From assembly GCA_902525625.1 (NCBI GenBank), contig CABZHM010000005.1:1-64000 (forward strand): a stretch of DNA of 64,000 nucleotides, written 5' to 3'. The notes under the pieces were generated by a model that ran no database searches, was not told where the DNA came from, and was given only the letters and a program-made list of their open reading frames with translations. This stretch comes from an uncultured Pelagibacteraceae bacterium (lineage in GTDB: Bacteria > Pseudomonadota > Alphaproteobacteria > Pelagibacterales > Pelagibacteraceae). Every line of letters begins with the position of its first letter. The stretch's first letter is position 1. Shown here one piece after another: positions 25,245-58,774 of this stretch. A program made the position numbers and the translations under genes.

Positions 25245-25330
25245 TACTAAGGTTAATTTGGTAATAATCAAAAAATTTGTCTGAAATTTATCAAAACTTG
25301 ATCGATTTAATTAATTAAATTATTTGGAAA

Positions 25331-39019: not shown

Positions 39020-41071
39020 TTATTTTTTTTTTATTAATTCAGTATTATTGATGTTTATTGCCATACAAGTAATATCGTCTCTTAATTTTTCGGCACCCCA
39101 ATTTAATTCCTTTTCAATTGACTCCACAATATTTTTTGGTGTCACTTCTGACATGCCATCTATGATTTTTTGTACTCCTTCAGCGCCTAATTCCTCACCA
39201 TTTTTCAAATACCCTTCGGTTACGCCATCAGTATAAACTACAAATGTCTTATCCTTAAGGTTCATAGTATTGGATTTAACCATAGACTCTGTAAAATATT
39301 TAATAATCCCAATGGGTGGCATTTCTGACTTAATATACTCATAATTTTTATTTTGATCAAAGGTCAAAATACTTTCATGACCAGCATTAATAAATACGAG
39401 TTCTCCAGTTTTAATGTTTAATTTTCCAAAAACAGCAGTTACAAACATCCCTTTAAATTTAGCCTCAACAAGCTCATTGTTCACTCCAAAGACAACTTTT
39501 TCTAAAGGGAACTTTAAATTAGTAAGCGTTCTAAATATGGACGATGCTTTGGCCATATACATACCAGCCTTTACTCCTTTTCCTGATACATCAGCTAATG
39601 TGAAAAAATATTCTTCAGGGGTAGATCTTACCACATCAAAATAGTCTCCAGATACATCTCTTGCTGGAACGTTTCTGGCAAAAATAAAATTTTCAAATTT
39701 TGATATATCTGGGAATAAGCTTTTTTGAACCCCTGCAGCAAGCTCTCGTTCTTTTAATAATTTTGCTTCTTTTTGTAAATTATCTAAAGCTATTTTGTTT
39801 TCCTCGATAAATCTAAAGTAAAGACCAGTTAAAAAAGTAGCAGTTACGATAAATATGGGATAACTCATATCAACTAATTCAGATCTAAATTTATAAATAG
39901 AAAATCCAATAATTATGATTGCCAAAATATTTCCAAAAAAAATCGATAAACTTAGTTTTGGTTTTACTTTTTGAGATAAAATAAATGTAATTACAGCAAC
40001 AAAAATAGAAAATAATAACTCAAATATATATGTGTTTGGGTTTCTTACCAAATACGATTTATCCAAAATATTTTCAATAACATTAGCATGAACTTCAACT
40101 CCTGGTATAGTTACTCCAAGAGGAGTTTTAACTAAATCGAACAACCCTTGCGCTGAAGCACCGATTAAAACGTATTTATCTTTAAAAAAATCTGTTTGAA
40201 ATTTACCGTCATAAACATCTCCAGCTGAGATATATTGATTTTTATCTGACTTTTTATATTTAATCCAAATGATCCCATTAGGATCCGAGTCTATCTTATG
40301 AGGTCTTGCGCTAATTCTTTTAATTCCAACTTCATTTAATTCAACATAAATATTTTTTTGTTCAGAACCAACTCTGACCATTTCTAAACCCATAGTTGGA
40401 TACATTTTTTTATTAAATTGAACAATTAAAGGTAGAGATCTAATGATACCATCTAATTGATCTAAAAAAGAAATAGATCCTAAACCTTTGACATTTTTTT
40501 CCAATACTTCAAGTGAACCTATTGAATAAGGATAAGAATATGTAAATTGCTTTGGTTCCCCACCTTTAGATAAAAATCTGGCTTTTGCTTTTCGATCATA
40601 ATTTGAATGGGATGGAACATTACTTCCCAGAACTGCTATTATTGATTTAGATTCTTTAAGTTTCTCTGCAAATATATCATCGGGACTTTTTAAATTTTGA
40701 AGTTCTGCCATGTCAGATGGAATTAAACCATATGATTGAATTATAGCATCAGGCGATTGTTTATCTTTTTCAGTGAAAAAAATATCAAAACCTATTGCCT
40801 TAGGGTTTGATTGATTTAACTTATCTAGGATTTCTGCAAAGACAATTCTATTCCATGGAAACTGGCCGAACTTACCTAAACTTTTTTCATCAATATCTAT
40901 TATTACTACTTCTGAATTTTTTTTTTCTGCAAATACTTTTTGATATAAGTCAAAACTCAAGAATGAAATAGATTTAATAAAACTTGGATTAATTATTTTT
41001 AAGAAAATTAAAAAAACAAGTAATAATGAAAAAATTACATAGTTTAGATGTTTGTGTAAAATTTGCTTCAC
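39020..41071 (-). CDS. CHASE2-sensor SpoIIE/RsbU-type Ser/Thr phosphatase
   Basis: Membrane receptor of 683 residues. An N-terminal membrane segment (about 11-30) leads into a periplasmic CHASE2 domain (VVIIDIDEKSLGKFGQFPWNR, KAIGFDIFFTE, GLGSISFLDQLDGIIRSLPL, YVLIGASAQGLFD), then three membrane segments (about 350-415). A coiled-coil linker (LLKERELAAGVQKSLFP) and a PP2C-like SpoIIE domain follow, with metal-site motifs SGDYFD, LADVSGKG, YTDGVTEG and DDITC. Such phosphatases dephosphorylate STAS antagonists. The probable substrate is the STAS protein at 47577-47876. The signal sensed is unknown. Confidence 0.9.
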   Translation of the reverse strand: MKQILHKHLNYVIFSLLLVFLIFLKIINPSFIKSISFLSFDLYQKVFAEKKNSEVVIIDIDEKSLGKFGQFPWNRIVFAEILDKLNQSNPKAIGFDIFFTEKDKQSPDAIIQSYGLIPSDMAELQNLKSPDDIFAEKLKESKSIIAVLGSNVPSHSNYDRKAKARFLSKGGEPKQFTYSYPYSIGSLEVLEKNVKGLGSISFLDQLDGIIRSLPLIVQFNKKMYPTMGLEMVRVGSEQKNIYVELNEVGIKRISARPHKIDSDPNGIIWIKYKKSDKNQYISAGDVYDGKFQTDFFKDKYVLIGASAQGLFDLVKTPLGVTIPGVEVHANVIENILDKSYLVRNPNTYIFELLFSIFVAVITFILSQKVKPKLSLSIFFGNILAIIIIGFSIYKFRSELVDMSYPIFIVTATFLTGLYFRFIEENKIALDNLQKEAKLLKERELAAGVQKSLFPDISKFENFIFARNVPARDVSGDYFDVVRSTPEEYFFTLADVSGKGVKAGMYMAKASSIFRTLTNLKFPLEKVVFGVNNELVEAKFKGMFVTAVFGKLNIKTGELVFINAGHESILTFDQNKNYEYIKSEMPPIGIIKYFTESMVKSNTMNLKDKTFVVYTDGVTEGYLKNGEELGAEGVQKIIDGMSEVTPKNIVESIEKELNWGAEKLRDDITCMAININNTELIKKK

Positions 41072-41130: not shown

Positions 41131-42414
41131 TTATTTCTTTTTTCTTCTTTTCTTTTTAGCTTTTTTCTTTTTAGCAGCTTTTCTTTTCTTAACGACTCTT
41201 TTTTTCTTGGCTACTTTCTTTTTAACTTTTTTCTTAGGTTTTTTCTTAACTACTTTTTTCTTCTTTTTAGGTTTTTTCTTGACTGCTTTTTTCTTTTTAG
41301 CTGGTTTTTTCTTGACCGCTTTTTTCTTTTTAGTAGCTTTTTTCTTAGTAGCTTTTTTCTTAGTAGCTTTTTTCTTAGTAGCTTTTTTCTTAGCCGGTTT
41401 TTTCTTAGTAACTTTTTTCTTTTCAGTTTTTGTTACTTTTTTCTTAACAGCTTTTTTCTTTTTGCCTTTTTTGTTTTTTGCTTTAGCTTTTTTCTTTTTG
41501 CCTTTTTTCTTGCCCTCGTCTAATTTAGCTTTTTTCTTTTGCTTTTTAGCTTTAGCTTTAGCTTTCTGAGCTTTTTTCTTTTCAGCTCTTTCGGCTTTGA
41601 TTGCTACTTTTTTCTCTTTATCTTTTTTAATGTTCTGTTTGATAATTGTTTTAATTTCCTCTTTTTCAAAACCTAGGGATTTTAATTCTTTTTTTAAACT
41701 TTTTCGTAATTGTTTTCTCTCAGCTTTAGTCTCATTAGGTGAAAGTTTCGCAACTCTTAACGCTTTCATCTTTTTATTAAATTTCTTTAATTGGTTCTTT
41801 GTAATTTTCTTTGCTTGTCCAGGAGCTTTTCCTTTAGACATTGAAGCCATACTATAAGGATTATCTAATAAGGTTTGACCAAGATTATTTCCAACTAATA
41901 CTGCACCTGGTCTCATACCTAGCGTATTATTTTTTCCAGGACCGATTAATAGAGTATCTGTTTTTCCTTTTGAAACTATAGTTTGAAATTCTGTTCCTCT
42001 TGAACCCAAAGTTCCCTCAGGTACCTCAACTGTAAGACTGTCTGGATTTTTTTTGCTGATTAATCCTGAGATGACTTTTAAACTTCCTTGTTTGACACTT
42101 GCAACTATTTTTCCATCATTTGTTTCTGGATCAAAAATAAACGTATCCATTACTACTTCAGAATCTTCTCCAACAGTAAAAGTAGATTGATCTAACAACA
42201 AAATTTGTGTGCCTGAGCCAGCTCCTGCATAAATAGTTTCGTTTAGATAAATTTTATCTCCAGCTTTTAATTCTCTAGTTTCAGTCTTCACTGTTCCTGA
42301 AATAGCTCCAACTATTCCAACAAGTTGCTTTTCAATACTTAGCTTCTCCGCAGCATTTGCTGATGTAGAGGTAATTAAGAATAAACCAAAAATTGCACTA
42401 ATAATTTTTTTCAT
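41131..42414 (-). CDS. Secreted FecR-domain protein with histone-H1-like polylysine tail
   Basis: The start is placed at the ATG at 42414, which begins a clear signal peptide (MKKIISAIFGLFLITSTSANA); the frame opens six codons earlier. Residues of about 25-160 form a FecR-like domain (VGIVGAISGTVKTETRELKAGDKIYLNETIYAG, STFTVGEDSEVVMDTFIFD, VEVPEGTLGSRGTEF). The last 220 or so residues are almost entirely Lys, Ala, Val and Thr, with repeats such as KKKAT and KKKAVKKKP, like histone H1 or AlgP tails. A Sec-exported protein with such a basic tail is odd; it might bind DNA, LPS or acidic polymers outside the inner membrane. It lies between CHASE2-phosphatase and TPR-barrel genes. Confidence 0.85.
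   Translation of the reverse strand: MKKIISAIFGLFLITSTSANAAEKLSIEKQLVGIVGAISGTVKTETRELKAGDKIYLNETIYAGAGSGTQILLLDQSTFTVGEDSEVVMDTFIFDPETNDGKIVASVKQGSLKVISGLISKKNPDSLTVEVPEGTLGSRGTEFQTIVSKGKTDTLLIGPGKNNTLGMRPGAVLVGNNLGQTLLDNPYSMASMSKGKAPGQAKKITKNQLKKFNKKMKALRVAKLSPNETKAERKQLRKSLKKELKSLGFEKEEIKTIIKQNIKKDKEKKVAIKAERAEKKKAQKAKAKAKKQKKKAKLDEGKKKGKKKKAKAKNKKGKKKKAVKKKVTKTEKKKVTKKKPAKKKATKKKATKKKATKKKATKKKKAVKKKPAKKKKAVKKKPKKKKKVVKKKPKKKVKKKVAKKKRVVKKRKAAKKKKAKKKRRKKK
41330..41395. repeat. Tandem 15-bp repeats coding KKKAT units
   Basis: About four consecutive near-identical 15-bp units (plus-strand pattern AGCTTTTTTCTTAGT) code for ATKKK repeats in the FecR-protein tail. Looser versions of the unit extend on both sides. 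In-frame units like these can change copy number by slippage without breaking the gene. Confidence 0.85.
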
Positions 42415-42455
42415 TAGAGCTGAAAATAGCAAATTTACTGGAAAAACAAAATATC

Positions 42456-42533: not shown

Positions 42534-43835
42534 TTAATTCAATCTGAATGATTTAGAAAAACTTAAAGAAAAAGAATCTGTAATGTAATCATAATTGATA
42601 ATATTAGCATCAGAAATTAACTTTTCGTAGGATAAATTTATAAATAAACTTCTATTTGGATCAATTGTTGGAAATATATCACCAATTGCTTTAGTTAACA
42701 TTATATCAAACGTGTTAGTAAAATCTGATCTGATAGTATTATTAACTGATGTGTCCTCTTTCTTGTAATCATTAAAACTAAAACTATTAGTGACAGCTAT
42801 GTAGGCCCATGGAAATGCAAAATTTAAACCTAGTCCAATATCATAATTTTCATAATCATTTCCTGAATCAACTCTCGCATCACTATCGCTATAACCTAGA
42901 CTGATATTTGTTGTTATTAATTCATTTAAAATAAAATCATGACCTAAAGTAATGCCGTGACCACTTGAGTTTGTTTCATTAGCAGTTGTATCCATAATGT
43001 TATTATTGCCTTTTGAATTTGAGTATGACCATCCATAACTAAAAGAATTCCTTTCACCGACTGAAAAGAAACCGCCAAGGCCGTACATCTTGGAGAAACT
43101 ATCAGAATCGTGTTGGTAGTCTGATTTACTTAAAATTAAATATGGACTTATACTTTGTCCGGCAAAAACAGTATCTAAACCTAAAGTTAAACCATAACTT
43201 TGATAGTCATCATCAGTTTCAAAATATTGTTCAGACGAAGTATGCGATAAATTTATTAATAAAGAAGATTCTTCACCAACTGGTCTTGAAGCTGACAAAC
43301 CCATACTACCACTTAAAGTTCTATCAAATTTTGGTGAGTTAAATACTTCACGAGCTCCTGAAGAGTCTTTAAATCCTGAACTTGAAACACTGTTGACGTT
43401 ATCTGAAAATACTGCTCCAGTAGAAAAATCTGCTGCAAACGTCCAAAGTCCAGGTTCTCTATCTTTAAGCTCCTCTTCAATTTCTTGTAAGGTTTCTAAA
43501 TCTTCAGCAGAAAGATCCCTTCTCAACTTCATCTCTTCAATTATAGTGTTTGCTTTTTCAGGTGAGTCAACTTGGACCAGAACAGATAGTAAATATAATT
43601 TTATTTCAGTGTTATCAGGGTAAAGCATATTCAATCTTTCAAGTGTGGAGATTGTTTGCTTAAAATTTCCCATTTTACCTTGTTGTTGGGCATATTTTAA
43701 ATTCAAGTCTAAATCATTTGGTTTTTGTAAAATTTGCATGTATGTGATATTTTTTTCCGAAGAGACAGCAAAGGTTGTCATTAGCAACAAAATTGAGGTG
43801 AAAACAAATATTAGCTTGTTAGTGTTTAAATTCAT
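42534..43835 (-). CDS. TPR plus outer-membrane beta-barrel protein
   Basis: I do not recognise a named family. The ORF opens at a TTG at 43871, but the ATG at 43835 gives a good signal peptide (NLNTNKLIFVFTSILLLMTTFAVSS) and is preferred, giving 433 residues. After it come TPR-like helices (DLNLKYAQQQGKMGNFKQTI, LNMLYPDNTEIKLYLLSVL) to about residue 115, then alternating, aromatic-ended beta strands to the C-terminus (FSLSFSKSFRLN), as in a barrel of the outer membrane. Neighbours are the FecR protein and the Amt-phosphatase. It could export or anchor a surface component, but that is inference. Confidence 0.65.
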   Translation of the reverse strand: MNLNTNKLIFVFTSILLLMTTFAVSSEKNITYMQILQKPNDLDLNLKYAQQQGKMGNFKQTISTLERLNMLYPDNTEIKLYLLSVLVQVDSPEKANTIIEEMKLRRDLSAEDLETLQEIEEELKDREPGLWTFAADFSTGAVFSDNVNSVSSSGFKDSSGAREVFNSPKFDRTLSGSMGLSASRPVGEESSLLINLSHTSSEQYFETDDDYQSYGLTLGLDTVFAGQSISPYLILSKSDYQHDSDSFSKMYGLGGFFSVGERNSFSYGWSYSNSKGNNNIMDTTANETNSSGHGITLGHDFILNELITTNISLGYSDSDARVDSGNDYENYDIGLGLNFAFPWAYIAVTNSFSFNDYKKEDTSVNNTIRSDFTNTFDIMLTKAIGDIFPTIDPNRSLFINLSYEKLISDANIINYDYITDSFSLSFSKSFRLN

Positions 43836-43895
43836 AAAAGTGAAAGATATTAAGTCTATTGTTTTTTTCAATTAATATTTTTTTGGGAATTAATA

Positions 43896-46049
43896 CTATT
43901 TTCCAATACTTATTACTGTTAAGTCATCAGTCAGTTTTTGATTTTTACTCGTATTTATGACCATTCTAGTTATGTCACTTAATTGTTGAGTGGTATCTTT
44001 ACTGTAATTAGCCTCAATTATATCTATCGATCCATCGATACCTATTTCTTGTCCTTTATCATTTAAGCTTTCAGATAGTCCATCAGTGAATGCATAAAAT
44101 CTTGACCCGTTTAGTTTCATTTTATTAATATTATAAATACTTTTGTCTTTCTGTTTGATAACACCCAAGGGAGGCGCTGAACTTTGAAACTGCTCATATT
44201 TACCATGATCATTTCTAACAATTGCAGGCTGGTGACCCGCGTTTACCCATCTAATTTCATCTGTAATTAAATTGTATTCACCAATTATTGAAGTTACAAA
44301 CATTCCACCAGTTTTAGTATTATTTAAATCATTATTCATATGCAAAACCATTTCATCTGGATCTACTTTTGATTGGGACAAAACTTCGAATAAAGTAGAC
44401 GCTTTTGCCATAACCATTCCAGCGTGAATACCCTTGCCAGCAACATCAGCAATTATAAAATAAATATTATCATTGTGAGGATAAAAACTAAAGAAATCAC
44501 CTGAAACTTCTCTGGCTGATAGGTTGATACCGTGAACAGGATAATTTTTTAAATTTCTTTTTGGTAAGAAGTTTTCTTGAACTTTTACTGCTAATTTGAC
44601 CTCTTTAGAAATTCTTTCACGCCACTTATTTCTTTCTTCTTCTGTTGTTTCAAGCTTACTCATTAACTTATTATAATAAAGACCAATTACACCACCAGCA
44701 GTAAACGGATCTTGAGGTCCCCTTACTTTAAGATCTCCAGATTCTGATTGTTTGTTTAAAATTGAAATTAAATCATGCTCAATTGAAACCGCATTATGCT
44801 CTGCAATATTTAATCCTAATTCCTCTTGGACGGTACTTACTCTTAATGGATAAAATTTATTTACAAAATTCAAAATTATAAATGAAGAGATAAAAGTAAA
44901 TGATCCAATAGCCAAAATTCCTATTAATTGAATCTTAATTTGTGAAAATCTATCAAGACCAGTATCTAAGACGTTTAAATCACTAAAAAAGCCAACTGCT
45001 AAGGTTCCCCAAATTCCAGCGGCCAAGTGAACTGGAACAGCACCAACAACATCATCTATTTCAAATCTATTTAAAAGTTCATTAACAAAAATTGCAATGA
45101 TTGCACCAATGATACCTACAAAAATAGATGTAACTGACGTCATTGAATTACATCCTGCGGTAATTGCAACTAAACCAGCTAACGGACCTAAAATAATATA
45201 AAAGGGATCGGGTTTTTTATGTTTAATATATGAAATACCTAATCCAGTTAATAAACCAAAAGCAGCAGCTAAAAATGTATTAATTAGAATTAAAGGCACA
45301 ACTTCATCCATTGCACCGTTGCTTCCGCCATTAAAACCAAACCATCCAAACCACAAAATAAGTGTACCTAAAACTGCGAGTGGAAAACTAGATCCAGTGA
45401 ATTTACCTTTATTAGCATTAGAGTATTTACCAATTCTTGGTCCCAAAATAATTACCGCTGCTAAAGCAATCCATCCACCTACAGAATGTACAATAGTACT
45501 TCCAGCAAAGTCAACAAAACCTAAATCTGAAAGCCACCCTGTTGATCTAACAGAACCAGTTGCAACTAATAACTGATCAACGGTATCATATTTTGAGAGA
45601 TAACTTGAAGACCATGCCCAATGACCAACTATAGGATAAATAATACCTGTAGCAAGAACAGTCATAATCAAATAACCATTAAATTTCATTCTTTCAGCAA
45701 CTGCACCTGAAATAATTGTTGCGGCAGTGGCAACGAACATTGCTTGAAATACAAAATAAGTCATATATTCCGCTTTGGTGGTTTTGAAAAAAAATAAATC
45801 AGTGCCAAAAAAACCGTAATAAGAAGTACCAAACATGATACCAAAACCAAATATCCAGAAAATAACTACAGATACTCCAAAATCTGCAGCGTTTTTAAGG
45901 GCAACATTAATGCTATTTTTGTGCCGTGATAAACCAGTTTCCATACACATAAAACCTGCTTGCATTATGAAAACTAGAATTGCGCAATCTATCACCCATA
46001 AAGTATCAATGTTACTTGTTAGTACATCAATTACGTCTTGGGGCATCAT
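43896..46049 (-). CDS. Ammonium transporter fused to SpoIIE/RsbU-type phosphatase
   Basis: A 717-residue fusion. Residues of about 10-410 are an Amt/MEP channel with 11 or so membrane segments; the twin pore histidines (STIVHSVGGW and VPVHLAAGIWG), the gate phenylalanine region (FQAMFVATAATIISGAVAERM) and FDGAGS-like VDFAGS are present, so transport looks possible. A linker of about 90 residues follows, then a PP2C-like SpoIIE domain with SGDFFSF, IADVAGKGIHAG, VNAGHQPA, FTDGLSES and DDLTV. The layout suggests that ammonium passage or binding controls dephosphorylation of a STAS antagonist. It lies downstream of the pilins and a small lipoprotein. Confidence 0.93.
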   Translation of the reverse strand: MMPQDVIDVLTSNIDTLWVIDCAILVFIMQAGFMCMETGLSRHKNSINVALKNAADFGVSVVIFWIFGFGIMFGTSYYGFFGTDLFFFKTTKAEYMTYFVFQAMFVATAATIISGAVAERMKFNGYLIMTVLATGIIYPIVGHWAWSSSYLSKYDTVDQLLVATGSVRSTGWLSDLGFVDFAGSTIVHSVGGWIALAAVIILGPRIGKYSNANKGKFTGSSFPLAVLGTLILWFGWFGFNGGSNGAMDEVVPLILINTFLAAAFGLLTGLGISYIKHKKPDPFYIILGPLAGLVAITAGCNSMTSVTSIFVGIIGAIIAIFVNELLNRFEIDDVVGAVPVHLAAGIWGTLAVGFFSDLNVLDTGLDRFSQIKIQLIGILAIGSFTFISSFIILNFVNKFYPLRVSTVQEELGLNIAEHNAVSIEHDLISILNKQSESGDLKVRGPQDPFTAGGVIGLYYNKLMSKLETTEEERNKWRERISKEVKLAVKVQENFLPKRNLKNYPVHGINLSAREVSGDFFSFYPHNDNIYFIIADVAGKGIHAGMVMAKASTLFEVLSQSKVDPDEMVLHMNNDLNNTKTGGMFVTSIIGEYNLITDEIRWVNAGHQPAIVRNDHGKYEQFQSSAPPLGVIKQKDKSIYNINKMKLNGSRFYAFTDGLSESLNDKGQEIGIDGSIDIIEANYSKDTTQQLSDITRMVINTSKNQKLTDDLTVISIGK

Positions 46050-46436: not shown

Positions 46437-46871
46437 TCAACATTCAGTAGAATCAATACTACCACTATCATCTATATCTAACTGGCAATCACCAAGACCT
46501 ATAGCTCTCACAGTATAAGAAGTTGTACCTGGCGAAAACGCACAAAAAAGAAAGCCATTTTCTTGTTTTATGTAATTTGCTTTTCCAAATAGATCCGTTC
46601 CTATCGCTTGGGTTGTGGCTACAGATGGTGTACACTCCGTTTCTACAGTTGGTGCTTCGCAATAACCATCAATGGTAGAATAATAAGTCCCACAGCTAGC
46701 ATAATGATCTGTTTGAGCTAATCCGATTTGCATTAAGACATTTTCTGCAGCTTTTTTTTTTGTACCATCGACATAACCATTATAGGACACAACACCTATT
46801 GCTGATAAAATTCCAATTATAGCAATCACGACTAGGAGCTCGATTAAAGTGAAACCCGAGCTCTTAGTCAT
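46437..46871 (-). CDS. Type IV pilin-like protein (second pilin)
   Basis: A 144-residue prepilin. The short leader MTKSSG is cut before FTLIELLVVIAIIGILSAIGV, the class III signal with Glu5; the rest of the conserved helix follows (NGYVDGTKKKAAENVLMQI). The globular part has six cysteines and ends in LDIDDSGSIDSTEC, an EF-hand-like acidic loop that may bind calcium. PilD (58775-59539) should process it. It lies 15 bp after the first pilin. Confidence 0.92.
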   Translation of the reverse strand: MTKSSGFTLIELLVVIAIIGILSAIGVVSYNGYVDGTKKKAAENVLMQIGLAQTDHYASCGTYYSTIDGYCEAPTVETECTPSVATTQAIGTDLFGKANYIKQENGFLFCAFSPGTTSYTVRAIGLGDCQLDIDDSGSIDSTEC

Positions 46872-46886
46872 AAAATTTTAAGTCTA

Positions 46887-47411
46887 TTATTCTAATCCAA
46901 CGTCGTCTGATAATGGATCTGCATCTGAGTCATATTTTGACGTAACTGTAATTGTGTTTCCACTTCCTGAAACTGTTACGTTACCCAACGCAGACGTACA
47001 ATCAACACCATGTGAGTCACCACCACTGTCCTCTTCCTCAGCCTCAGCCTCAGGGGCAGTTGCAGATGCTTGAACAGCAGTGCAAGCAGTATCAAAAGGA
47101 TTTTTATCAGCGAATGGACTAGAGGTACCCAAATATGTAACAATATCATCTCCAGCTGAAGATGAATTTACTGAAGTATTATAACTGGCACAAGTCATAC
47201 CTCCTAGAATTGTTCCATCAGAGTCTAAACTGCATTTTTTTGTCTCTGCAGCTATCGATTTAACTACATTGGCATGAATAGTTTTTACAGCATTTTTCTT
47301 AGCAGCACCTGTGTATCCATTATAGGCAACAACACCTACTGCAGCTAAAATACCTATGATTGCAACAACAACCAATAATTCTATTAGTGTAAAACCTTTG
47401 TTATTTTTCAT
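46887..47411 (-). CDS. Type IV pilin-like protein (first pilin)
   Basis: A 174-residue prepilin with leader MKNNKG, cleavage before FTLIELLVVVAIIGILAAVGV, Glu5 present, then NGYTGAAKKNAVKTIHANV. The globular domain has four cysteines and an acidic insert (EAEAEEEDSGGDSHG). It is the first gene of the minus-strand pilin block, transcribed away from the STAS/kinase pair with a 165-bp shared upstream region. As the promoter-proximal pilin it may be the major subunit; that is inference. Confidence 0.92.
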   Translation of the reverse strand: MKNNKGFTLIELLVVVAIIGILAAVGVVAYNGYTGAAKKNAVKTIHANVVKSIAAETKKCSLDSDGTILGGMTCASYNTSVNSSSAGDDIVTYLGTSSPFADKNPFDTACTAVQASATAPEAEAEEEDSGGDSHGVDCTSALGNVTVSGSGNTITVTSKYDSDADPLSDDVGLE

Positions 47412-47507
47412 TTTAGTTCCTCTTTTTTATTTAATTTTTAATTCTTATTAATAATTTTCAATAAGTAAATACTTTATAAACGCTATATTATCTATCAAAA
47501 ATAAATG

Positions 47508-47532
47508 TTTTTTGTCCATAATGGGCAAAAAA
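47508..47532. promoter_or_regulatory. 25-bp near-perfect palindrome between pilin and STAS genes
   Basis: The arms TTTTTTG and CAAAAAA flank an inner TCCAT-A-ATGGG; all 12 pairs match except one (T at 47515 against G at 47525). It lies about 45 bp before the STAS start and about 97 bp before the pilin start, well placed to control both. It matches the FecR upstream element on one strand. Confidence 0.6.
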
Positions 47533-47576
47533 TATACATTTTGTGTTTTATTTATGTTATCAGTTAAAAATTATTT

Positions 47577-47876
47577 ATGTCTTATAAAGTAACCGAAGAA
47601 GGAAATGTCAGCACTGTCTTTTTAAATGGAGAGATAGATATGGACGTTACCGAAAAAGCTAAAGAAGTAATTTTACCTATAGTAGAGTCAGGCAAAGAAG
47701 TTCATCTTAATTTAAAAGATGTATCATACATGGATTCTTCGGGAATTTCTGTCCTTATTGAAAGCCACCAAAAAGCTCTTGAAAATAATACCAAGGTTAT
47801 TGTCAAAGAGGTAAGTAAATCTGTTTTAAAGGTAATCATGATGGCAAAACTTGAACAGATTTTAAACTTAGAATAA
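47577..47876 (+). CDS. STAS-domain anti-sigma factor antagonist (SpoIIAA/RsbV type)
   Basis: A 99-residue single STAS domain. The start TVFLNGEIDMDVTEKAKE and the core HLNLKDVSYMDSSGISVLIESHQKA are typical. The phospho-acceptor motif MDSSG places the serine at residue 54 or 55. In partner switching the unphosphorylated form binds the HATPase kinase and frees its target; RsbU/SpoIIE phosphatases reactivate it. It overlaps the kinase gene by one base (TAATG) and is one of only three plus-strand genes in the pilus region. Confidence 0.94.
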   Translation: MSYKVTEEGNVSTVFLNGEIDMDVTEKAKEVILPIVESGKEVHLNLKDVSYMDSSGISVLIESHQKALENNTKVIVKEVSKSVLKVIMMAKLEQILNLE

Positions 47877-48289
47877 TGAATATTGAAGAATCTAAAGATT
47901 TTCTTGTAAGCACAGCTAGTTTAAAAGACGTAAGAACTTTCTCTAGAGAAGTATTTGAAAAAATTAATTTACCACAAGATCAAAAAGATGAGCTTGTATT
48001 AGCAATAGCTGAAGCGGCACAAAATATCGTTAAACATGCCTATAAGGATGTTGCAGAAACATCAGATAGAATGGAGATTAGAATTTCACTTAAAGATAGT
48101 GATTTAGAGATAGGTTTTTTTGACAAAGGAAAAGCAGTAATACCAGAAAATATTAAACATAGAAAATTAGATGATATTAAACCAGGTGGTCTTGGAACTT
48201 TTTTTATAAAACAAATTATGGATGCGGCTGTTTTTAAAAAAGATCAAAAAGAGTGGGTAAACCATTTGGTGCTTACCAAAAAAATTTAA
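47876..48289 (+). CDS. HATPase anti-sigma-type serine kinase (RsbW/SpoIIAB-like)
   Basis: A 137-residue GHKL kinase of the HATPase_c_2 class. The N-box ELVLAIAEAAQNIVKHAY has Glu46, Asn50 and His54, the G1 box is FFDKGKA (Asp83, Gly85) and the G2 box PGGLGTFFIKQIMD. Such kinases phosphorylate a STAS partner and sequester an output protein, often a sigma factor. No sigma factor, HPt or other output gene is adjacent, so its target is unknown. The 3' end overlaps the convergent pilC by 4 bp. Confidence 0.93.
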   Translation: MNIEESKDFLVSTASLKDVRTFSREVFEKINLPQDQKDELVLAIAEAAQNIVKHAYKDVAETSDRMEIRISLKDSDLEIGFFDKGKAVIPENIKHRKLDDIKPGGLGTFFIKQIMDAAVFKKDQKEWVNHLVLTKKI

Positions 48290-49521
48290 CCAATCAATGC
48301 ACCAACGTTAAAGATTGGTGAATACATTGCAATCATTAATCCACCGATCATAATCCCCATAAAGACAATCATTATTGGTTCAATCAAACTTGACATATTA
48401 TCAACAGCTCCATCAAATTCTTCCTCATAGTACATTGCAACAGAGCCAAACATTTCATCTAATTGCCCAGTTTGCTCACCAACAGAAATTAATTGACTAA
48501 AAGTTGGAGGAAATAATGGTTCTTTCAAAAATAGTTTTGTTAGAGTGTCTCCAGAAAAAACTCCCTTTTTAACATTTTCCAAAGCTTCTGTTACAACTAC
48601 ATTATTACTCACTGATTTTGCAATCTCTATACTTTCCAATAAATTTACCCCAGCTGCACTCAAATTTCCCATTATTAAAGAAATTCTTGCAAGCAGTGAT
48701 TTTAATATTAAATCACCAAAAACTGGTAGCTTTAAAACTTGTTTGTGCCATCTATACTTAATCATTTCATTTTTAGCTGTTAAATATTTAAATCCTACAA
48801 AAAAGGAAATTAAACTTATTAATAAAACCATTCCTCCTGTTCCTCTTAAAAAATCACTCATTGACATAATAACTGCTGTTGGGGCTGGTAAATCTAAACC
48901 CATTCCCGCATACATTTTTGCAAAAACAGGGACGACTTTAATCAACATAAATGCACTAACAGTTATTGCTACTGAAAACATTATAGCAGGATACATAAGT
49001 GCAGATTTAATTTTCTTTTTTATTTTTTCTTTTTTTTCTAAAGAGTCGACAATCTTTAATAAAAATACGTCTAATTTACCGCTGGCTTCTCCAGCTTTTA
49101 TAAGATTACAATAAACGTTATCAAAATATTGAGGATATTTTTCAAAACATTTAGAAAGCGTTACCCCTCCTTCAAGACTTTTTCTAATATCTTCGATCAC
49201 CTCTTTTATTGCTGGACCCTCTAACTGGTCTCTTAGCATTGCTAAAACTTCAAGTATTGGTAAGCCTGCTTTAACCATGGTTGCAAACTGTTTTGAAAAA
49301 ATTAAGACGTCTTCCGTTTTAACTTTTGGTTTACCAAAAGAAAAACCTTTACCTTTTGTTTTAGCTTTAGTCTCTGCTTTTTTCTTTTTTGATCTTATTA
49401 AGTTAGTAATAATTATTTTTTGCTCTTTGAGCTTATGAGATGCTTCCTCTTGATTGATGGCCTCAATATCACCCTCTACATATTTGCCATCTGCAATGCC
49501 TTTATAAGTAAATGCTTCCAT
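48286..49521 (-). CDS. pilC: Type IV pilus inner-membrane platform protein PilC
   Basis: A 411-residue platform protein. It has an N-terminal segment FTYKGIADGKYVEGDIEA, a lysine-rich linker, then two T2SSF domains: FSKQFATMVKAGLPILEVL...CNLIKAGEASGKLD and LLARISLIMGNLSAAGVNLLES...ISVGEQTGQLDEMF, each followed by membrane segments (LMYPAIMFSVAITVSAFMLI and LIEPIMIVFMGIMIGGLMIAMYSPIF). It couples the assembly ATPase PilB to pilin insertion. It is the last gene of the pilMNOPQBC run. Confidence 0.96.
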   Translation of the reverse strand: MEAFTYKGIADGKYVEGDIEAINQEEASHKLKEQKIIITNLIRSKKKKAETKAKTKGKGFSFGKPKVKTEDVLIFSKQFATMVKAGLPILEVLAMLRDQLEGPAIKEVIEDIRKSLEGGVTLSKCFEKYPQYFDNVYCNLIKAGEASGKLDVFLLKIVDSLEKKEKIKKKIKSALMYPAIMFSVAITVSAFMLIKVVPVFAKMYAGMGLDLPAPTAVIMSMSDFLRGTGGMVLLISLISFFVGFKYLTAKNEMIKYRWHKQVLKLPVFGDLILKSLLARISLIMGNLSAAGVNLLESIEIAKSVSNNVVVTEALENVKKGVFSGDTLTKLFLKEPLFPPTFSQLISVGEQTGQLDEMFGSVAMYYEEEFDGAVDNMSSLIEPIMIVFMGIMIGGLMIAMYSPIFNVGALIG

Positions 49522-49542
49522 TTTTTTTTAAGTATATAGTAA

Positions 49543-51294
49543 TTATGAGGCTGATAAAACCCGCTCATATTCCCTAAAATTAAGTTCTCCATTAGCAATT
49601 AGTCTTCTTCCCATATCTTGCATGGTTTGAAAACCCTCTTTAATTGCTATTTCTCTTAACTCAGGTGTTGTTGCTTTTCTAAGAATTGCCTCTTTCACTG
49701 GTTTTGAAACAACTAAAATTTCATAAAGACCTTGTCTTCCCTTGTAGCCAGTATCTTTACATTTAGGACAACCTTTTCCTTTAAGAGCTTTTACTCTTGA
49801 AGCTAGCTCAGGCGTGAACCCTAAGTCTTGTAAAACTTTTGGATTAACATCATCGTCTGGAACTCTACATTCTTTACATGTTCTTCTAGCTAATCTTTGC
49901 GCTAAAACCATTTGGCAAGCTGCACTAATTAAATAATCAGGAGTACCCATGTTTTGTAATCTAGTTATCGTACTTGGAGCATCATTCGTGTGCAAAGTAC
50001 TAAATACTAAGTGACCTGTTAAAGCAGCTTTCAATCCAATATCAACTGTTTCTTTATCTCTCATCTCCCCAACAAGTATTATTTCCGGGTCTTGTCTTAA
50101 GAAAGATCTTAAAGCCGCAGCAAAACTTAACCCAATGTCATCTTTTATTTGAACTTGCCCTACGCCATCTAGCTCATATTCAACAGGATCTTCAGCTGTT
50201 AGGATATTTAAGTGAGGCTTGCTTACCTCTTTTAAAATACTATAAAGAGTTGTTGATTTACCAGATCCTGTTGGTCCAGTTACAAGTATTAAACCTTGAG
50301 TTCCATGAATTGCTTTTCTTAAATTCTGTAAGTCAACATCCTCAAAATTTAATTGCTCTAAAGTTATGTCACCAGCATCTTTATTTAAAACCCGCATTAC
50401 TATTCTCTCGTTATTAGCGGTTGGTAAAATCGATAAACGTAAATCAACAACTTTACCATCTATCTTGAAATTTATTGCTCCATCTTGAGGTAATCTTCTT
50501 TCGGCAATATCTAATTTACCCATTATTTTAAATCTTGTAACAACCGCTCCATAATTATCATGAAGAAATTTTTTATATTGTTCTTGCTCTTGGAGCATTC
50601 CGTCTAATCTGTATCTAACTCTTGAGCTAAATCTGTATGGTTCGATATGAATATCACTAACACCTGATTTAATAGCTTCTGCTACAACTGCTGTACTAAA
50701 TTTTATTACTTCCGATTCATTTTCAATTGCTTCTATATCTTCTTCAGGAGTTTTTTCTAAGACCTCACCCGCCTCACCTAAATCAGAATCAAAGGTTTTT
50801 ATTTTCTCTCTATTCTCTTGTCTAATCGTTGCAGTTGTAACATCTCCACTCTCTGATTGAAGTTTTTCAATAAACTCTGAAATTTGTGAAACTTTTGCAG
50901 CATGTAGCTCTATATTCTTTTTTGTAATTGCTTTCAAATTTCTCATTAGACCAAGCTTTGAACTATCTGAAATTGCAATGTGAAGAGTTTTACCATCAAC
51001 TTTAAAAGGCGCTACAAAATTTACGTTTATGTAATTTGAAGGCAGCACGCTTTTAATTTCTTCGCTTATTTGAATTTTAGAAAGATCTACAATTTCAAGA
51101 CTTTGTTCTTTTACTAAAACATTTAAAATTTTATTTTCGTCAGTGAGCTTAAGTTCAAATACTGCATCTATCTGAGATTTATTTCCCTCAGTGCTAATCT
51201 TTTTAATATTAATTAAATCTTTTCCAGAAATAATATCATTATCAATTAATACATTGATTAAATTAATTTCACTTTCTCTGCTGATTTTAAGCAT
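49543..51294 (-). CDS. pilB: Type IV pilus assembly ATPase PilB
   Basis: Secretion ATPase (583 residues) powering pilus extension. It has an MshE/GspE-type N-terminal domain (about 1-150), then the ATPase core: Walker A GPTGSGKSTTLYS, Asp box TAEDPVEYELDGVGQVQI, Walker B RQDPEIILVGEMRD, His box TGHLVFSTLHTNDA, and a tetracysteine zinc site CKECR...CPKC. The zinc motif and the N-domain mark it as an assembly ATPase rather than PilT. It is immediately adjacent to the secretin gene. Confidence 0.97.
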   Translation of the reverse strand: MLKISRESEINLINVLIDNDIISGKDLINIKKISTEGNKSQIDAVFELKLTDENKILNVLVKEQSLEIVDLSKIQISEEIKSVLPSNYINVNFVAPFKVDGKTLHIAISDSSKLGLMRNLKAITKKNIELHAAKVSQISEFIEKLQSESGDVTTATIRQENREKIKTFDSDLGEAGEVLEKTPEEDIEAIENESEVIKFSTAVVAEAIKSGVSDIHIEPYRFSSRVRYRLDGMLQEQEQYKKFLHDNYGAVVTRFKIMGKLDIAERRLPQDGAINFKIDGKVVDLRLSILPTANNERIVMRVLNKDAGDITLEQLNFEDVDLQNLRKAIHGTQGLILVTGPTGSGKSTTLYSILKEVSKPHLNILTAEDPVEYELDGVGQVQIKDDIGLSFAAALRSFLRQDPEIILVGEMRDKETVDIGLKAALTGHLVFSTLHTNDAPSTITRLQNMGTPDYLISAACQMVLAQRLARRTCKECRVPDDDVNPKVLQDLGFTPELASRVKALKGKGCPKCKDTGYKGRQGLYEILVVSKPVKEAILRKATTPELREIAIKEGFQTMQDMGRRLIANGELNFREYERVLSAS

Positions 51295-52833
51295 CTATAA
51301 AATCCTTGGTGCGATAAACACTAATAGTTCATCCATGTTATCAGTATTTGCTTTACCTTTAAATAAATTTCCAACAACTGGAACATCTCCTACCCCAGGA
51401 GTTTGTTGTTTGCTGTTAGTTAGAGCATTCTTTTTAATACCGCCTATAACTACGATATCGCCATCAGCTATTAATAATTTTGTACTAATTTCCATTTTAT
51501 TGATTGCAGGATCCCCTGGGTTAGATCTATTAGGCGTATCATTATTAACTTGGATATCCAAAAGAACATTTCCATCTCCAATAATACTAGGTGTAACAGT
51601 CATTTTTAAAGCTGCCTCTTTAAATGATGTATCGGCTCCCTCTGAAGAACTTGACTGGTATGGTATTTCCTCACCTTGTGTGATAGTTGCGACCTGGTTA
51701 TCTAAAGTAAATATTTTTGGATTCGATATAGTTTTTCCCATCCCCTGTGACTCGAGTGCAGTTATTTCAGTCTTTAAAACTGCGGATCCTGTTTTCTTTA
51801 ATATTCCAATACCACTTGTCTTACCAGCTGCTCCAAAATTTGTTATGGAGTCAGTAGTGGAACCTATGACAGCAGTAGCTGCACCTATATCTGCATCTCC
51901 TGATGAGCCTGCTTGAACACCACCTATTATCTCACCCTGTCTTCTATAGTATCCACCAAGAGCCGTGCCTAAAGCTCTTTCAAAATCTGAATTTGCCTCA
52001 ACAATAAAAGCTTCAATTAAGACTTGTCTTGTTCTAACATCAATTTCTTTAATTATTTTATCGACTACATCTAAATCTTTTTCTTTTCCTCTTGCAATAA
52101 TTGATCTTGTTGTTTTTTCTTCAGTAATTTGAACCAAAGAAATTCCACCATCAACTGCTTTAAATAACTCATCTAAAGTAGCTTTGGCTTCAGCAGGACT
52201 TATATAATAAAGTCTAAATATTTCTGAAATTAATGGCTCTACAGAGTCCTCTAATTCAACTTTTTTTCTTACAGCCGAGGCTCTTGCTGATTTTGTGGAT
52301 TCTTGTTGAGTTAAATTTGATGGAGAGTGAACTCTTATTAAGTTGCTTTGAACATCAAAATCAGCTGCGTAGTTTTTTAAATCTAAAAGTGCATTAAAAG
52401 CTTTGTCCCATGGAATATCAATTAATTGTGCTGTTACTGATCCAGCAACTTCATCACCAATGAGAATATTTATCTCACCTGCTTTCGCCATCAATTCTAT
52501 TGCAGTTCTATAATCTAGATTTTTAAAATTAAATGAGATATTTTGCTTTAATAATTCATATTCATCGCCAATTAATAAATAGTTTCTTGCTTTTTGTGAA
52601 GAAATTTGTTTTCTTTTACCAAGTTTAATTACATCAGCCTCAGCTGGTTTTGGCCCCATCTTGGCAGTTTTATCAACTTCTATTTTGCCTTTCTTTTTTA
52701 TGTCATCTTTTATTAAAGGAGTGTTATGTTTAAATTTTTTTGTTCCAAATTTACCATCAGTAGCGCAACCACTTAAAAGCAAGGTTGAAAAAATGCTAAA
52801 TAAAATAAAAAATTTAATATTTTTAAAATTCAT
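51295..52833 (-). CDS. pilQ: Lipoprotein secretin of the pilus (PilQ/MshL-like)
   Basis: Outer-membrane pore for the pilus, 512 residues. The N-terminus is a lipoprotein signal peptide with LSGC lipobox. An STN-type domain follows (FKNLDYRTAIELMAKAGEINILI), N1-type domains (RLYYISPAEAKATLDELFK...), then the secretin domain with RQVLIEAFIVEANSDFERALG, SQGMGKTISNPKIFTLDNQVA and VPVVGNLFKGK...ELLVFIAPRIL. The short lipoprotein form is more like MshL or PulD than the long PilQ with AMIN domains. Overlaps pilP by 11 bp. Confidence 0.93.
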   Translation of the reverse strand: MNFKNIKFFILFSIFSTLLLSGCATDGKFGTKKFKHNTPLIKDDIKKKGKIEVDKTAKMGPKPAEADVIKLGKRKQISSQKARNYLLIGDEYELLKQNISFNFKNLDYRTAIELMAKAGEINILIGDEVAGSVTAQLIDIPWDKAFNALLDLKNYAADFDVQSNLIRVHSPSNLTQQESTKSARASAVRKKVELEDSVEPLISEIFRLYYISPAEAKATLDELFKAVDGGISLVQITEEKTTRSIIARGKEKDLDVVDKIIKEIDVRTRQVLIEAFIVEANSDFERALGTALGGYYRRQGEIIGGVQAGSSGDADIGAATAVIGSTTDSITNFGAAGKTSGIGILKKTGSAVLKTEITALESQGMGKTISNPKIFTLDNQVATITQGEEIPYQSSSSEGADTSFKEAALKMTVTPSIIGDGNVLLDIQVNNDTPNRSNPGDPAINKMEISTKLLIADGDIVVIGGIKKNALTNSKQQTPGVGDVPVVGNLFKGKANTDNMDELLVFIAPRIL

Positions 52834-53329
52834 TTGCCTCTTTTATTTGGTTTTTAAAATTCATAATTATGTACTGGTTATCGTCAGCTTTTTCAAAAAC
52901 TGCTCTTTTTATACTTACGTCAACAAGTTTTACACCACTTAAGACTTCTTCAAATAATTCTACTGTCATAAATTCACCATTGTCATCAACTAAGGTAATA
53001 AAACTATTATCTTTGGCAGAAAATGATCCAACGAGTTTATAAGATCTTAATTTTACTGCACTGGATGTAGGTGTTACTTCTGTAACTATGTTACTAGCTG
53101 TTGAAGCGTCTCCAGCAAATGGATCATTTAAGGGCAACGGTTCTTCTTGTACAACAATTTGACCTGTTTCTTTAGTAATGTTTTCTTGTTGTGCTGCTTG
53201 CTTCTCTTTGACTTGTTTATTAATCTCTTTTGCTTTTTCAACAATGTTTTGGTCGTGACTATCTGACATTACTTTCTGTGAGAAAGTAATAACTATTAAA
53301 ACCAAAAATATGAGTCTAAAAAAATTCAT
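52823..53329 (-). CDS. pilP: PilP-like pilus alignment protein
   Basis: A 168-residue protein with a signal sequence or anchor (FFRLIFLVLIVITFSQKVMS), a charged, disordered linker, the short motif LPLNDPFAG and a small beta domain (YKLVGSFSAKDNSFITLVDDNGEFMTVEL) as in PilP and GspC HR domains. PilP links the inner-membrane PilN-PilO pair to the secretin. There is no lipobox, unlike many PilP proteins. The call depends on size, domain pattern and position between pilO and pilQ. Confidence 0.75.
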   Translation of the reverse strand: MNFFRLIFLVLIVITFSQKVMSDSHDQNIVEKAKEINKQVKEKQAAQQENITKETGQIVVQEEPLPLNDPFAGDASTASNIVTEVTPTSSAVKLRSYKLVGSFSAKDNSFITLVDDNGEFMTVELFEEVLSGVKLVDVSIKRAVFEKADDNQYIIMNFKNQIKEANEF

Positions 53330-54017
53330 CTGGTAAACCCACTATTGTTAATACACCAGTTACAGCTACCGTACTGGTTGTATCTCCTTTTATCACTTTA
53401 ATTGTTTCTTTGTCAAAATTTAACATTTTTTGAGACATAGCTACTTGTCTCTTAAACTTAATATATCCAAGAAAATTGCCCTTTATTTGAAAATTTACAG
53501 GTATTCTGTAATACGCAATATTTTTTTTAACACTGGTGTCAACTTTCTTCTTTCTTTTTCTTTTTTTCTTCTTTTTCTTTTTATCTGTCGAAGCGATAGC
53601 TGATGCCTTTGTTATAGCCTTTGCTTTGCCCTTTTCGATCTTTGAAATAACTAAGTTGTTTATCCCAGCGAATTCACTGAGTGTTTCATAAAGACCCTCA
53701 ACCTCAGCTTTACTGTGGAATAAAGTAGAATATTGCTCGTATCGAGGAGTAAGTTTTTTTATTTTAGCTTTACTAGTTTTAATTACTTGATTCATCTTTG
53801 TTATCTCAGCTTGTTTTTTTTGCATGTTATCCAACTGAGCTTTTTTCTTCTCAACTATTGGACTTAAAACAGCGTAATAAATGATTAAGAATATAATTAC
53901 TGACAAGAATCCAATACCAAATTTAATTAGAATTTTTTTATCTATCGATTTAATTTTAGCTTTTACACTTTCTAAATTGATATTCTTTAAATCTAAACTA
54001 ATATTCTTTAAGTCCAT
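53316..54017 (-). CDS. pilO: PilO-like pilus alignment protein
   Basis: A 233-residue bitopic protein: a cytoplasmic start, membrane segment at about 33-52 (FGIGFLSVIIFLIIYYAVL), coiled coil (VEKKKAQLDNMQKKQAEITKMNQ), then a ferredoxin-like periplasmic domain (LYETLSEFAGINNLVISKIEKG ... IPVNFQIKGNFLGYIKFKRQV). A basic run of 12 Lys/Arg residues (about 146-157) interrupts the periplasmic domain. Position after pilMN and before pilP supports PilO. Confidence 0.85.
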   Translation of the reverse strand: MDLKNISLDLKNINLESVKAKIKSIDKKILIKFGIGFLSVIIFLIIYYAVLSPIVEKKKAQLDNMQKKQAEITKMNQVIKTSKAKIKKLTPRYEQYSTLFHSKAEVEGLYETLSEFAGINNLVISKIEKGKAKAITKASAIASTDKKKKKKKRKRKKKVDTSVKKNIAYYRIPVNFQIKGNFLGYIKFKRQVAMSQKMLNFDKETIKVIKGDTTSTVAVTGVLTIVGLPDEFF

Positions 54018-54020
54018 AAA

Positions 54021-56462
54021 TTATCCCTTAACATCCACAAAAACTGTAAAGCTCTTTTTAATATCTGCAGAATCTCCAGCCTTACCTTTGTAATTCATTT
54101 TTCCAAGTGATGCTTGTAAAACTAACTCCTGCTTTCCTAAGTTATTAATTAACTTCAAAATGTCTTGATCGGTTGCAGCTTGACCTTTTATAATCACTTT
54201 ATTCTTACCATTGTATTCAACTGATGCAAATTTTATTCTTTTAGGAACACTCATAGCAACCTGAGCTAAAACTCTATAGCTATTCTGTTTATTTGATTTT
54301 AAACTTTTACTCAATTTTAAGGTGTTTGTAATTATAGCTAACTCTTTTTTTATTTTCTTTTGTTCAGATATTTTAGCTTTATGAGTTTTTAGGACAGTAT
54401 TGTAATTAACTAGTTTTTTATTGTAAGATTGGATATTCCAGAATGATAAGCCAAAAAGAATTATATATATTGCGGCTACTGAAGCAGCTATACCTTTGAA
54501 AGCAAAACTTGAAAAAGCTTTCATTTTTTTCTCTTTTATCATTCCCTTTCTATTGGGTAATAAGTTTATATTTTTGACAGCAGTTACAAATTTATAATAC
54601 CCAAATACATCCAATTTTCTAAAAGCAAGACCTACAACTGACGATAAATACGATCTGTTAATTAAATCTACTTTTTCTTTATTTTGCTGAGGGATTAATA
54701 ATCCATCGATTGGATCAAATAAATTAAAACCAACATTTAATAGACCCTTTCTAAAACTTGACAAGAAATCCTCAACATTTTTTAAATCTGAGACTACTTT
54801 TATGTTTCTTATTCTTTTCTCATATTTGGTCTCAAAATCTTGAACAGCTTGTTTTACTTGAGTTAAAAATCTTCTTACCAATGCTTCTTTTTCTTCAACA
54901 TCTTGTGACTCTAATAATATTTTTCTATCTTGGCCTCTTAAAAAAATATCAGTAATTATTGGATTATTGTCGTACAAAATCATTAAATAATTTTCATCTA
55001 AACCAAATTCTAGAACTGCAGTAAGATTTACATCATCTGCTTTATTTGAGATTTGATTTATTTGATCAACAGCAGATTTTAATGCAAAGCATTTTACATC
55101 AATTATAACTGGATTGAGATTACTTTGCTTGATTATGGAGGTATAATTGTTTATGTCAGCTAATTTTGAAGCGACAAATAAAATATCCATTGTATTAGCT
55201 TTTTCATTTCTATTAATAACTTGATGGAAAATTGAGTAATCGTCTAAGTTATCAGTCAATTGAACTAAATTTTCCCAAAGTGAATTAGTTTCAATAGCTT
55301 TTTGCAATTCCTCTTCTTTCATCAATGGTGCTGTTACAACTCTTATAATCGCACTTGTGACAGGTATAGCAATTGCAGCATTTAAAGTTGTGATTTTAGA
55401 TTTTTGTAATGCAATTGTAAGTTCTGCTCCTAATTTTTCTCCATTATCTAAAACATTTGCATCATCCGGTAAGTCGACAGGGTGAGCATAAAATTTATCC
55501 AACACCCATTGATTTGATTTATTAGTTGATACTTGAGCTAATCTTATTTCTTTGTTTGTAATTTCAACGCCAACAATTTCCTCTCCTTTAACTGCTGATT
55601 TTCCAATTTTAGATTTAAAAAAACTGGTAACTTTTTTTGAAAGTTCATTAGTTTTGAATGATGATTTTGAATCTGAACTTTTTTTTAAGAAGCTTGGTTT
55701 TTTAAGTTTAATATTTTTTAAATTATCTAAAAAAGCAAATTTTGATTTTTTATTTTCTTGTTCATCCTCTGATGATTGATTTAAAGTAGTAGTGTCAATT
55801 TTAGGTTCAGGTGAAGTGATTGCTTGACCCGTTTCTTGTTTATTATCTATTTGAGTTGATGTTTCCGGTCGAACAGAAGTTTCTTCAGTTAAAACAGGTT
55901 GTTCTTGAATTTCTTTTTCTTTTTCTTTACCTGCAACAACATCATCAAACCATTTTTCTAAAATTGGTATTGCTTCCTCCAAATTAGGAGTTCCTGATGA
56001 CGAGATTTTTTGTTTTCCATCATGATAAAGTCTTCCAACCCAATTTTTTGATTTCAATTCACCCTTGTATTTATCTTGTCGAATGTAAATATGTAGCCTT
56101 CCATCTTTCTTATGGATTACCTCATGTGAGGATCCATTATCTTCATCTTTTTTTTCAGTTGAAGTCTCGGGGATTTGTTGCTCTATGCTTTTTTGATCGT
56201 TATTTTGACTTGTATCAGAAATTATTTCATCATTTTGATTACCTGGGGTTTCATTTTCCTCTTTATTTTCATTCGGTGCATCAAATTTTTGGTTTGAGTC
56301 ATTATTTTCGTTATTATTTTGATTTAAGTCTGGGATAGGATCATTTTTTTGATTATCTGCTCCTTCAGGTTGATTATTTTCATCAACTTTAGATTGATTC
56401 TTAGACTCAGACTGAATCTTCTCTTCTTCAATAATTTTTTTTTCGTCGTCTTGATCGCTCAT
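54021..56462 (-). CDS. pilM-pilN: Fused PilM-PilN with long acidic N-terminal extension
   Basis: An 813-residue fusion. Residues 1-120 are acidic and Asn/Gln/Glu-rich, probably disordered. At about 124-180 is a small module (HIYIRQDKYKGELKSKNWVG, then LYHDGKQKISSSGTPNLEEA) that loosely resembles integrase arm-type or AP2-like domains; then another Gln/Glu-rich linker. From about 295 a PilM actin-like domain begins (GVEITNKEIRLAQ, with FGLDENYLMILY later). PilN follows at about 635: the PilN signature NINLLPNRKG, a membrane segment (FKGIAASVAAIYIILFGLSFW) and a coiled coil plus ferredoxin-like domain. It starts the pilus operon; eight motif copies stand upstream. Confidence 0.9.
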   Translation of the reverse strand: MSDQDDEKKIIEEEKIQSESKNQSKVDENNQPEGADNQKNDPIPDLNQNNNENNDSNQKFDAPNENKEENETPGNQNDEIISDTSQNNDQKSIEQQIPETSTEKKDEDNGSSHEVIHKKDGRLHIYIRQDKYKGELKSKNWVGRLYHDGKQKISSSGTPNLEEAIPILEKWFDDVVAGKEKEKEIQEQPVLTEETSVRPETSTQIDNKQETGQAITSPEPKIDTTTLNQSSEDEQENKKSKFAFLDNLKNIKLKKPSFLKKSSDSKSSFKTNELSKKVTSFFKSKIGKSAVKGEEIVGVEITNKEIRLAQVSTNKSNQWVLDKFYAHPVDLPDDANVLDNGEKLGAELTIALQKSKITTLNAAIAIPVTSAIIRVVTAPLMKEEELQKAIETNSLWENLVQLTDNLDDYSIFHQVINRNEKANTMDILFVASKLADINNYTSIIKQSNLNPVIIDVKCFALKSAVDQINQISNKADDVNLTAVLEFGLDENYLMILYDNNPIITDIFLRGQDRKILLESQDVEEKEALVRRFLTQVKQAVQDFETKYEKRIRNIKVVSDLKNVEDFLSSFRKGLLNVGFNLFDPIDGLLIPQQNKEKVDLINRSYLSSVVGLAFRKLDVFGYYKFVTAVKNINLLPNRKGMIKEKKMKAFSSFAFKGIAASVAAIYIILFGLSFWNIQSYNKKLVNYNTVLKTHKAKISEQKKIKKELAIITNTLKLSKSLKSNKQNSYRVLAQVAMSVPKRIKFASVEYNGKNKVIIKGQAATDQDILKLINNLGKQELVLQASLGKMNYKGKAGDSADIKKSFTVFVDVKG

Positions 56463-56482: not shown

Positions 56483-56815
56483 TCTAACACAATATAACGA
56501 ATCTCTAACACAAAATTATAATTTAGTCTAACACAAAATTTTAAGGTATATGTTCAAAATGAGTAGAATGGTAAAAATGTCAATAAAATAGCCATTTTTT
56601 ATAAAATAAAATATTTATTAAATTTTTTCTTTAAAAAAATTTTTTAATAAACTCTAACACAAATCTTAAATATTGAATTGTGTTAGAGTATTTATATTTT
56701 GTGTTAGAATATTTAATTTTAAATTTTTTTCAAAAAAGTCAATAAAATCAACAAAAATTAAAATTATTCTAAATTTCATTTTTTTTGTGTTAGAGTTTTA
56801 ACTTTATGTGTTAGA
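56483..56815. promoter_or_regulatory. Array of eight TCTAACACA-type motifs upstream of pilMN
   Basis: Forward copies (TCTAACACA) begin at 56483, 56504, 56527 and 56653. Reverse copies (TGTGTTAGA) end at 56687, 56708, 56794 and 56815. Each core of nine bases is exact and is followed by A/T, giving a 13-bp site (about TCTAACACAAAAT). Steps between neighbours are 21, 23, 21 and 21 bp, close to two helical turns, with longer gaps in between. The first site is 20 bp from the pilMN start codon. The pattern looks like a multi-site operator for a cooperatively binding regulator. Confidence 0.8.
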
Positions 56816-58675: not shown

Positions 58676-58774
58676 GCGCCTAATTTCTATTTGCACCTAA
58701 GTGATGCAATTATGTTAGTACAATACTGCATTAATGGGCTCATAGAATTTTCCTCTCAAATTAAGCTCTAAACT

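Follow-up and report, generated by a model that had tools for sequence, protein, structure and literature searches.

The question raised by this locus is what a STAS antagonist and an RsbW-like kinase, set among the type IV pilus genes of a SAR11 bacterium, act upon. The window (the whole 64,000-nucleotide stretch analyzed here) comprises bases 1-64000 of contig 5 of a 1.06 Mb, 34-contig genome that is 86% complete. The original prediction had placed the two proteins between the pilins and the pil run, and Pfam and NCBIfam matches together with the one-base overlap of the two genes (TAATG) bear this out: positions 47577-48289 hold a real pair, consisting of an intact STAS antagonist and an RsbW/SpoIIAB-like kinase. 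The first gene (47577-47876, forward strand) encodes a STAS-only protein of the RsbV/SpoIIAA type, 99 aa in length (Pfam STAS, E 4e-15; NCBIfam ant_ant_sig above cut-off). Its predicted phospho-acceptor is Ser54/Ser55 within the motif YMDSSGI, and D53-S54-S55-G56-I57 are invariant across 17 homologues. The second gene (47876-48289, forward strand) encodes a serine kinase of 137 aa (HATPase_c_2, E 1.6e-18) that carries conserved N-, G1- and G2-box motifs (E46..N50, D83-G85 and G104-G107) and whose structure model matches SpoIIAB and RsbW. In several relatives (L034, L035, L036, L037, L174 and L175) the STAS gene is duplicated in tandem; each copy keeps the DSSG site, and the second, which has a shorter C-terminus, shares 55-65% identity with the STAS of the window.

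The assembled 86% of the genome was searched for other members of these families, and contains a single STAS protein and a single HATPase_c_2 protein above cut-off, the RsbW-type kinase itself, so that no other pair in it matches the phosphatases better. A second, weak HATPase_c_2 match was found to be an ordinary histidine kinase and not another switch kinase. Three SpoIIE proteins are encoded genome-wide, all in the same island as the STAS-kinase pair. The three phosphatases earlier predicted within 20 kb were thus all recovered there, with two amendments: the one at 43896-46049 is a fusion to an ammonium transporter, and the last open reading frame spans 57326-58696, not 57326-58675. All lie on the reverse strand and were assigned by Pfam as a CHASE2-SpoIIE protein (39020-41071), an Amt-SpoIIE protein (43896-46049; Ammonium_transp 18-420, SpoIIE 527-715) and a GAF-SpoIIE protein (57326-58696). 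Motif inspection agreed with the prediction that the catalytic motifs of the STAS, the kinase and the three phosphatases are intact. The protein components of an Rsb/SpoIIA-type module are present: a STAS protein with a phosphorylatable serine, a GHKL kinase, and SpoIIE (PP2C) phosphatases.

Two pilin genes (46437-47411, reverse strand; N_methyl) run divergently from the pair, which itself converges on pilC and overlaps it by four bases. Genes for pilC, pilB and pilQ, recognized by Pfam, occupy 48286-54017 on the reverse strand together with genes assigned by position to pilP and pilO; a fused pilMN gene with an N-terminal extension (PilM_2 and PilN) lies at 54021-56462 on the same strand, and pilD, encoding the prepilin peptidase (Pfam), at 58775-59539 on the forward strand. 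A large protein of at least 1481 aa near the pilus genes was read as PilY1-like, and further pilin-like genes and pilT are found beyond the end of the window. At 36797-39013 is encoded a 738-aa protein with no Pfam match, read as a repeat region with a barrel-like C-terminus and hence adhesin-like, whose relatives are tandemly repeated beside other pilus loci (e.g. L026 and L163). The window also contains an ordinary class A RNase P RNA gene at 25330-25684.

This arrangement is conserved across SAR11. Among named relatives, the 80 that match the kinase best are 73-97% identical to it and all come from Pelagibacteraceae or Pelagibacterales records, which identifies the bacterium as SAR11. Among these named loci pilC directly follows the kinase in 80/80, which shows that the arrangement is not due to chance; STAS and the divergent pilin precede the kinase in 75, and STAS precedes it in four more. 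In 399 genomes of the same genus the kinase was detected in 130, PilB in 142 and both in 125, counts drawn from linked genes and related genomes; roughly one sampled relative in three has the switch. An exact test on these counts treats the genomes as independent and for that reason yields no fair probability. The discordances between kinase and PilB that were opened (G013, G063, G219, G100, G187, G231 and G319) fall at contig ends, one further genome (G212) has a partial kinase, and the exception is a clade of 14 genomes, type C, with a pilus lacking the switch. A pilus locus with the switch also occurs in a complete genome of 1,456,888 bp (G408).

Two other pilus types and one genome outside the family bear on how firmly the switch is tied to the filament. 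Type B (G012, G105 and G295) has a PilB about 45% identical to that of the window type, and here the pair is split: STAS immediately precedes pilD, and the kinase is found close to pilT, some 40 kb away in G012, with the CHASE2-SpoIIE protein and its two partners in the same region. The parts are thus apart yet attached to pilus genes, which argues more strongly than anything else here against simple hitch-hiking, and no genome opened carries the kinase away from pilus genes. The type B STAS proteins (L149:9553-10056, L154:7644-8153 and L155:11358-11867) carry at the C-terminus an acidic tail of low complexity, with KIKFKR as its last residues, that type A lacks. Type C comprises the 14 genomes mentioned above, with PilB 55-57% identical; in the stretches taken from six of them no STAS, kinase or SpoIIE was found, and the pilins directly adjoin pilC. 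G051, from another family, likewise has pili without the switch. Since SAR11 pili without it exist, the switch is regulatory and dispensable for assembly. The original prediction of one integrated, pilus-linked system is accordingly supported by the sole STAS and kinase, the confinement of SpoIIE to the island, the synteny, the co-occurrence with PilB and the type B arrangement, and is qualified by the switch-less pili.

The inputs of the switch are more variable than its core, for the set of sensors differs between genomes and the STAS-kinase pair is constant. In the Amt-SpoIIE protein a complete Amt domain is followed by a cytosolic signaling domain, the architecture by which Amt signaling fusions are recognized. 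Alignment reveals that the Amt part retains the twin histidines and gate phenylalanines expected for conduction, and so the sequence does not separate sensing from transport. No Amt fusion was seen in G033 (90% complete), and two occur in each of G018 and G011. A second Amt-SpoIIE protein, about 51% identical, stands in tandem in G018, G011, G372 and G100 (L029, L032, L152 and L173). The CHASE2-SpoIIE protein has two probable partners on the basis of neighborhood conservation, both encoded on the reverse strand: a FecR-domain protein (Pfam; 41131-42432) and a TPR and outer-membrane barrel protein (42534-43871). The AlphaFold model of the latter combines helical repeats with some 14 long strands, and its matches include porin-type barrels, BcsC and PelB. 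Pilus types A and B, as well as G334, have both genes together with CHASE2-SpoIIE, and we infer that the three proteins form an input line running from the outer to the inner membrane. No SpoIIE protein was found in 24 genomes outside the genus.

Partner switches are best known for two outputs, a diguanylate cyclase or a cognate alternative sigma factor. Within the window, as had been predicted, no sigma factor other than RpoD was seen, and a genome-wide search for sigma-70 region 2, which covers the sigma-70 family, added one RpoH-like protein and no dedicated alternative sigma factor. RpoD and RpoH are likewise the set in the complete genome G012 and in relatives with or without the switch; some incomplete assemblies lack one of the two or both, and a third, weaker sigma match occurs in G018. 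Within the sigma-70 family, the cognate alternative sigma factor that marks an anti-sigma system proper was thus not found. Nor was a GGDEF protein, the output of Sia-type switches, found in the 41 genomes searched, that of the window included. Both outputs are therefore unsupported, and because no dedicated sigma factor was found for it to act on, the switch probably controls the filament more directly than through one. Of the targets first proposed, the distant alternative sigma factor was not found in the sigma-70 family, RpoD is possible with nothing to favor it, and a component of the pilus fits best. On the sequence evidence, a target in the pilus system, favored because of gene linkage, or an output borne by the STAS protein itself would fit best.

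We consider it probable, with some reservation, that these genes form a partner-switching module dedicated to the SAR11 type IV pilus, with a kinase and STAS core, three phosphatase inputs and a non-sigma output on the pilus system. Against a pilus-dedicated role it counts that physical linkage alone would give co-occurrence of the genes, and that the genomes are related. By analogy with their families, the kinase would phosphorylate STAS at Ser54/Ser55 and the SpoIIE phosphatases would remove the phosphate in response to ammonium (through Amt), an envelope signal (through CHASE2 with the FecR and TPR-barrel proteins) and a small ligand (through GAF), three inputs that would converge on one bit. 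Less certainly, the output would be something other than an alternative sigma factor: unphosphorylated STAS or the released kinase may act on a protein of the pilus system or on its expression, and pilus production or activity may in this way be set by nitrogen and envelope state. A more specific version, in which external ammonium sensed by the ammonium-channel phosphatase directly sets pilus activity and the STAS or kinase binds a motor or assembly protein without involvement of a sigma factor or c-di-GMP, is offered tentatively and is rather doubtful.

Alternatively, the kinase may be an anti-sigma factor for RpoD (or RpoH), with free kinase sequestering part of it and STAS releasing that part when the phosphatases are active. 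The nearest structural matches of the kinase, SpoIIAB and RsbW, are anti-sigma factors, which counts against a non-sigma output; the RsbW of Chlamydia is reported in complex with the housekeeping sigma-66 (PMC11619594), and rpoD sits in the window. However, RpoD and RpoH are equally present in relatives without the switch, and a global target would not account for the way STAS and kinase remain beside pilus genes under each of two arrangements. We regard this explanation as unlikely.

It is similarly improbable that the switch controls transcription of the pilus genes via a DNA-binding protein instead of acting on the pilus machine. The STAS-kinase pair and the pilins share a divergent intergenic region, and a conserved repeat array stands upstream of pilMN, both of which would suit such control. 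Within the pilin-STAS gap, however, the inverted repeat at 47505-47535 is conserved only among close relatives, and as a candidate operator it was rejected: across 76 upstream regions, dyad scores equaled those of shuffled sequences (mean 6.96 vs 6.6). The array, found by eye, consists of eight TCTAACACAA sites (one mismatch allowed) at 56483-56815, about 330 bp of an 863-bp gap; within groups the copies mostly stand 21-25 bp from one another, and their order is mirrored. Relatives repeat this number and spacing, type C with less regularity. It too was rejected as an output site of the switch, since array and switch occur independently: type C has the array without the switch, and L031-L033, L142 and type B have the switch without the array. 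Since loci exist with one of the two, with both and with none, array and switch are separate modules. The weakest alternative is that the switch travels with the pilus island merely through shared inheritance and regulates something elsewhere, e.g. nitrogen metabolism. It could draw on the pilus types that lack the switch and on the ammonium transporter among its sensors, but is very improbable given that in no genome opened does the kinase lie away from pilus genes and that even the separated parts of type B adjoin them.

The array instead keeps company with a conserved, unrecognized domain in the N-terminal extension of PilMN (55893-56129, reverse strand). Among 74 loci with enough sequence, it is present in 59/59 with this domain and 0/15 without, counts behind which stand few independent events, as these loci share ancestry and the motif was picked out by eye. 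Window and type C loci are 62-78% identical in the domain, compared with 47-49% in PilMN as a whole. Searches with the domain gave nothing in Pfam, nothing meaningful in the PDB and weak PHROG matches (one being an HNH endonuclease family, E 0.002), and in viral contigs no relatives of it and two isolated TCTAACACAA matches were found. As a hypothesis from these sequence patterns, the domain possibly binds the array, in which case a pilus protein would act on the DNA upstream of its own gene.

A switch dedicated to the pilus would have precedents among partner switches with non-sigma or undefined outputs, which include HmpUVW in pilus motility of Nostoc, BtrUVW in type III secretion, and RbaVW (PMC8256260, PMC6495340). 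In Hmp of Nostoc punctiforme (HmpU/V/W), STAS, RsbW-like kinase and phosphatase are likewise tied to type IV pilus motility, the STAS is thought to be the output and the downstream effector is undefined (PMC8256260, PMC6495340). Its host, however, is a cyanobacterium with several sigma factors, whereas in SAR11 the switch genes are embedded among the pilus structural genes and come with three sensor phosphatases, one of them an Amt fusion. The Btr system of Bordetella, which serves a secretion machine, and the alphaproteobacterial RbaV/RbaW of Rhodobacter capsulatus share an output other than a known sigma factor, but neither is described there in a pilus locus or with an Amt-linked phosphatase (PMC8256260). 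With RsbU/RsbV/RsbW and SpoIIE/SpoIIAA/SpoIIAB of Bacillus the SAR11 switch has the three protein families and the kinase fold in common; unlike them, it has no cognate alternative sigma factor that we could find in the sigma-70 family. Chlamydia Rsb is also a partner switch in a reduced genome, and its RsbW, as noted above, reportedly forms a complex with the housekeeping sigma factor (PMC11619594), but it is not pilus-linked and includes two further sigma factors. Ks-Amt5 of Kuenenia, like the SAR11 fusion, joins an Amt domain to a cytosolic signaling domain (PMC5764959), and PDB 6eu6 is among the best matches of the SAR11 protein; the output of Ks-Amt5 is a histidine kinase, whereas that of the SAR11 protein is a SpoIIE phosphatase.

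Pieces of the system have been seen before: in 2007 a hypervariable region of the isolate HTCC1062 was listed with two tandem ammonium transporters near pilin genes, and another with a "phosphatase, sigB regulator" beside pilins (PMC2217521). In the largely open-access literature searched, we found no description of a SAR11 pilus partner switch or an Amt-SpoIIE fusion, nor of this combination of parts and its prevalence in SAR11. SAR11 pili themselves have barely been studied, and a 2025 paper records merely filaments believed to be pili. These bacteria combine a single switch and a defined set of sensors with two known sigma factors, and have no c-di-GMP, which makes the question of what a partner switch targets without a sigma factor unusually tractable, and the proposed module, if true, would provide a nitrogen input to a surface structure.
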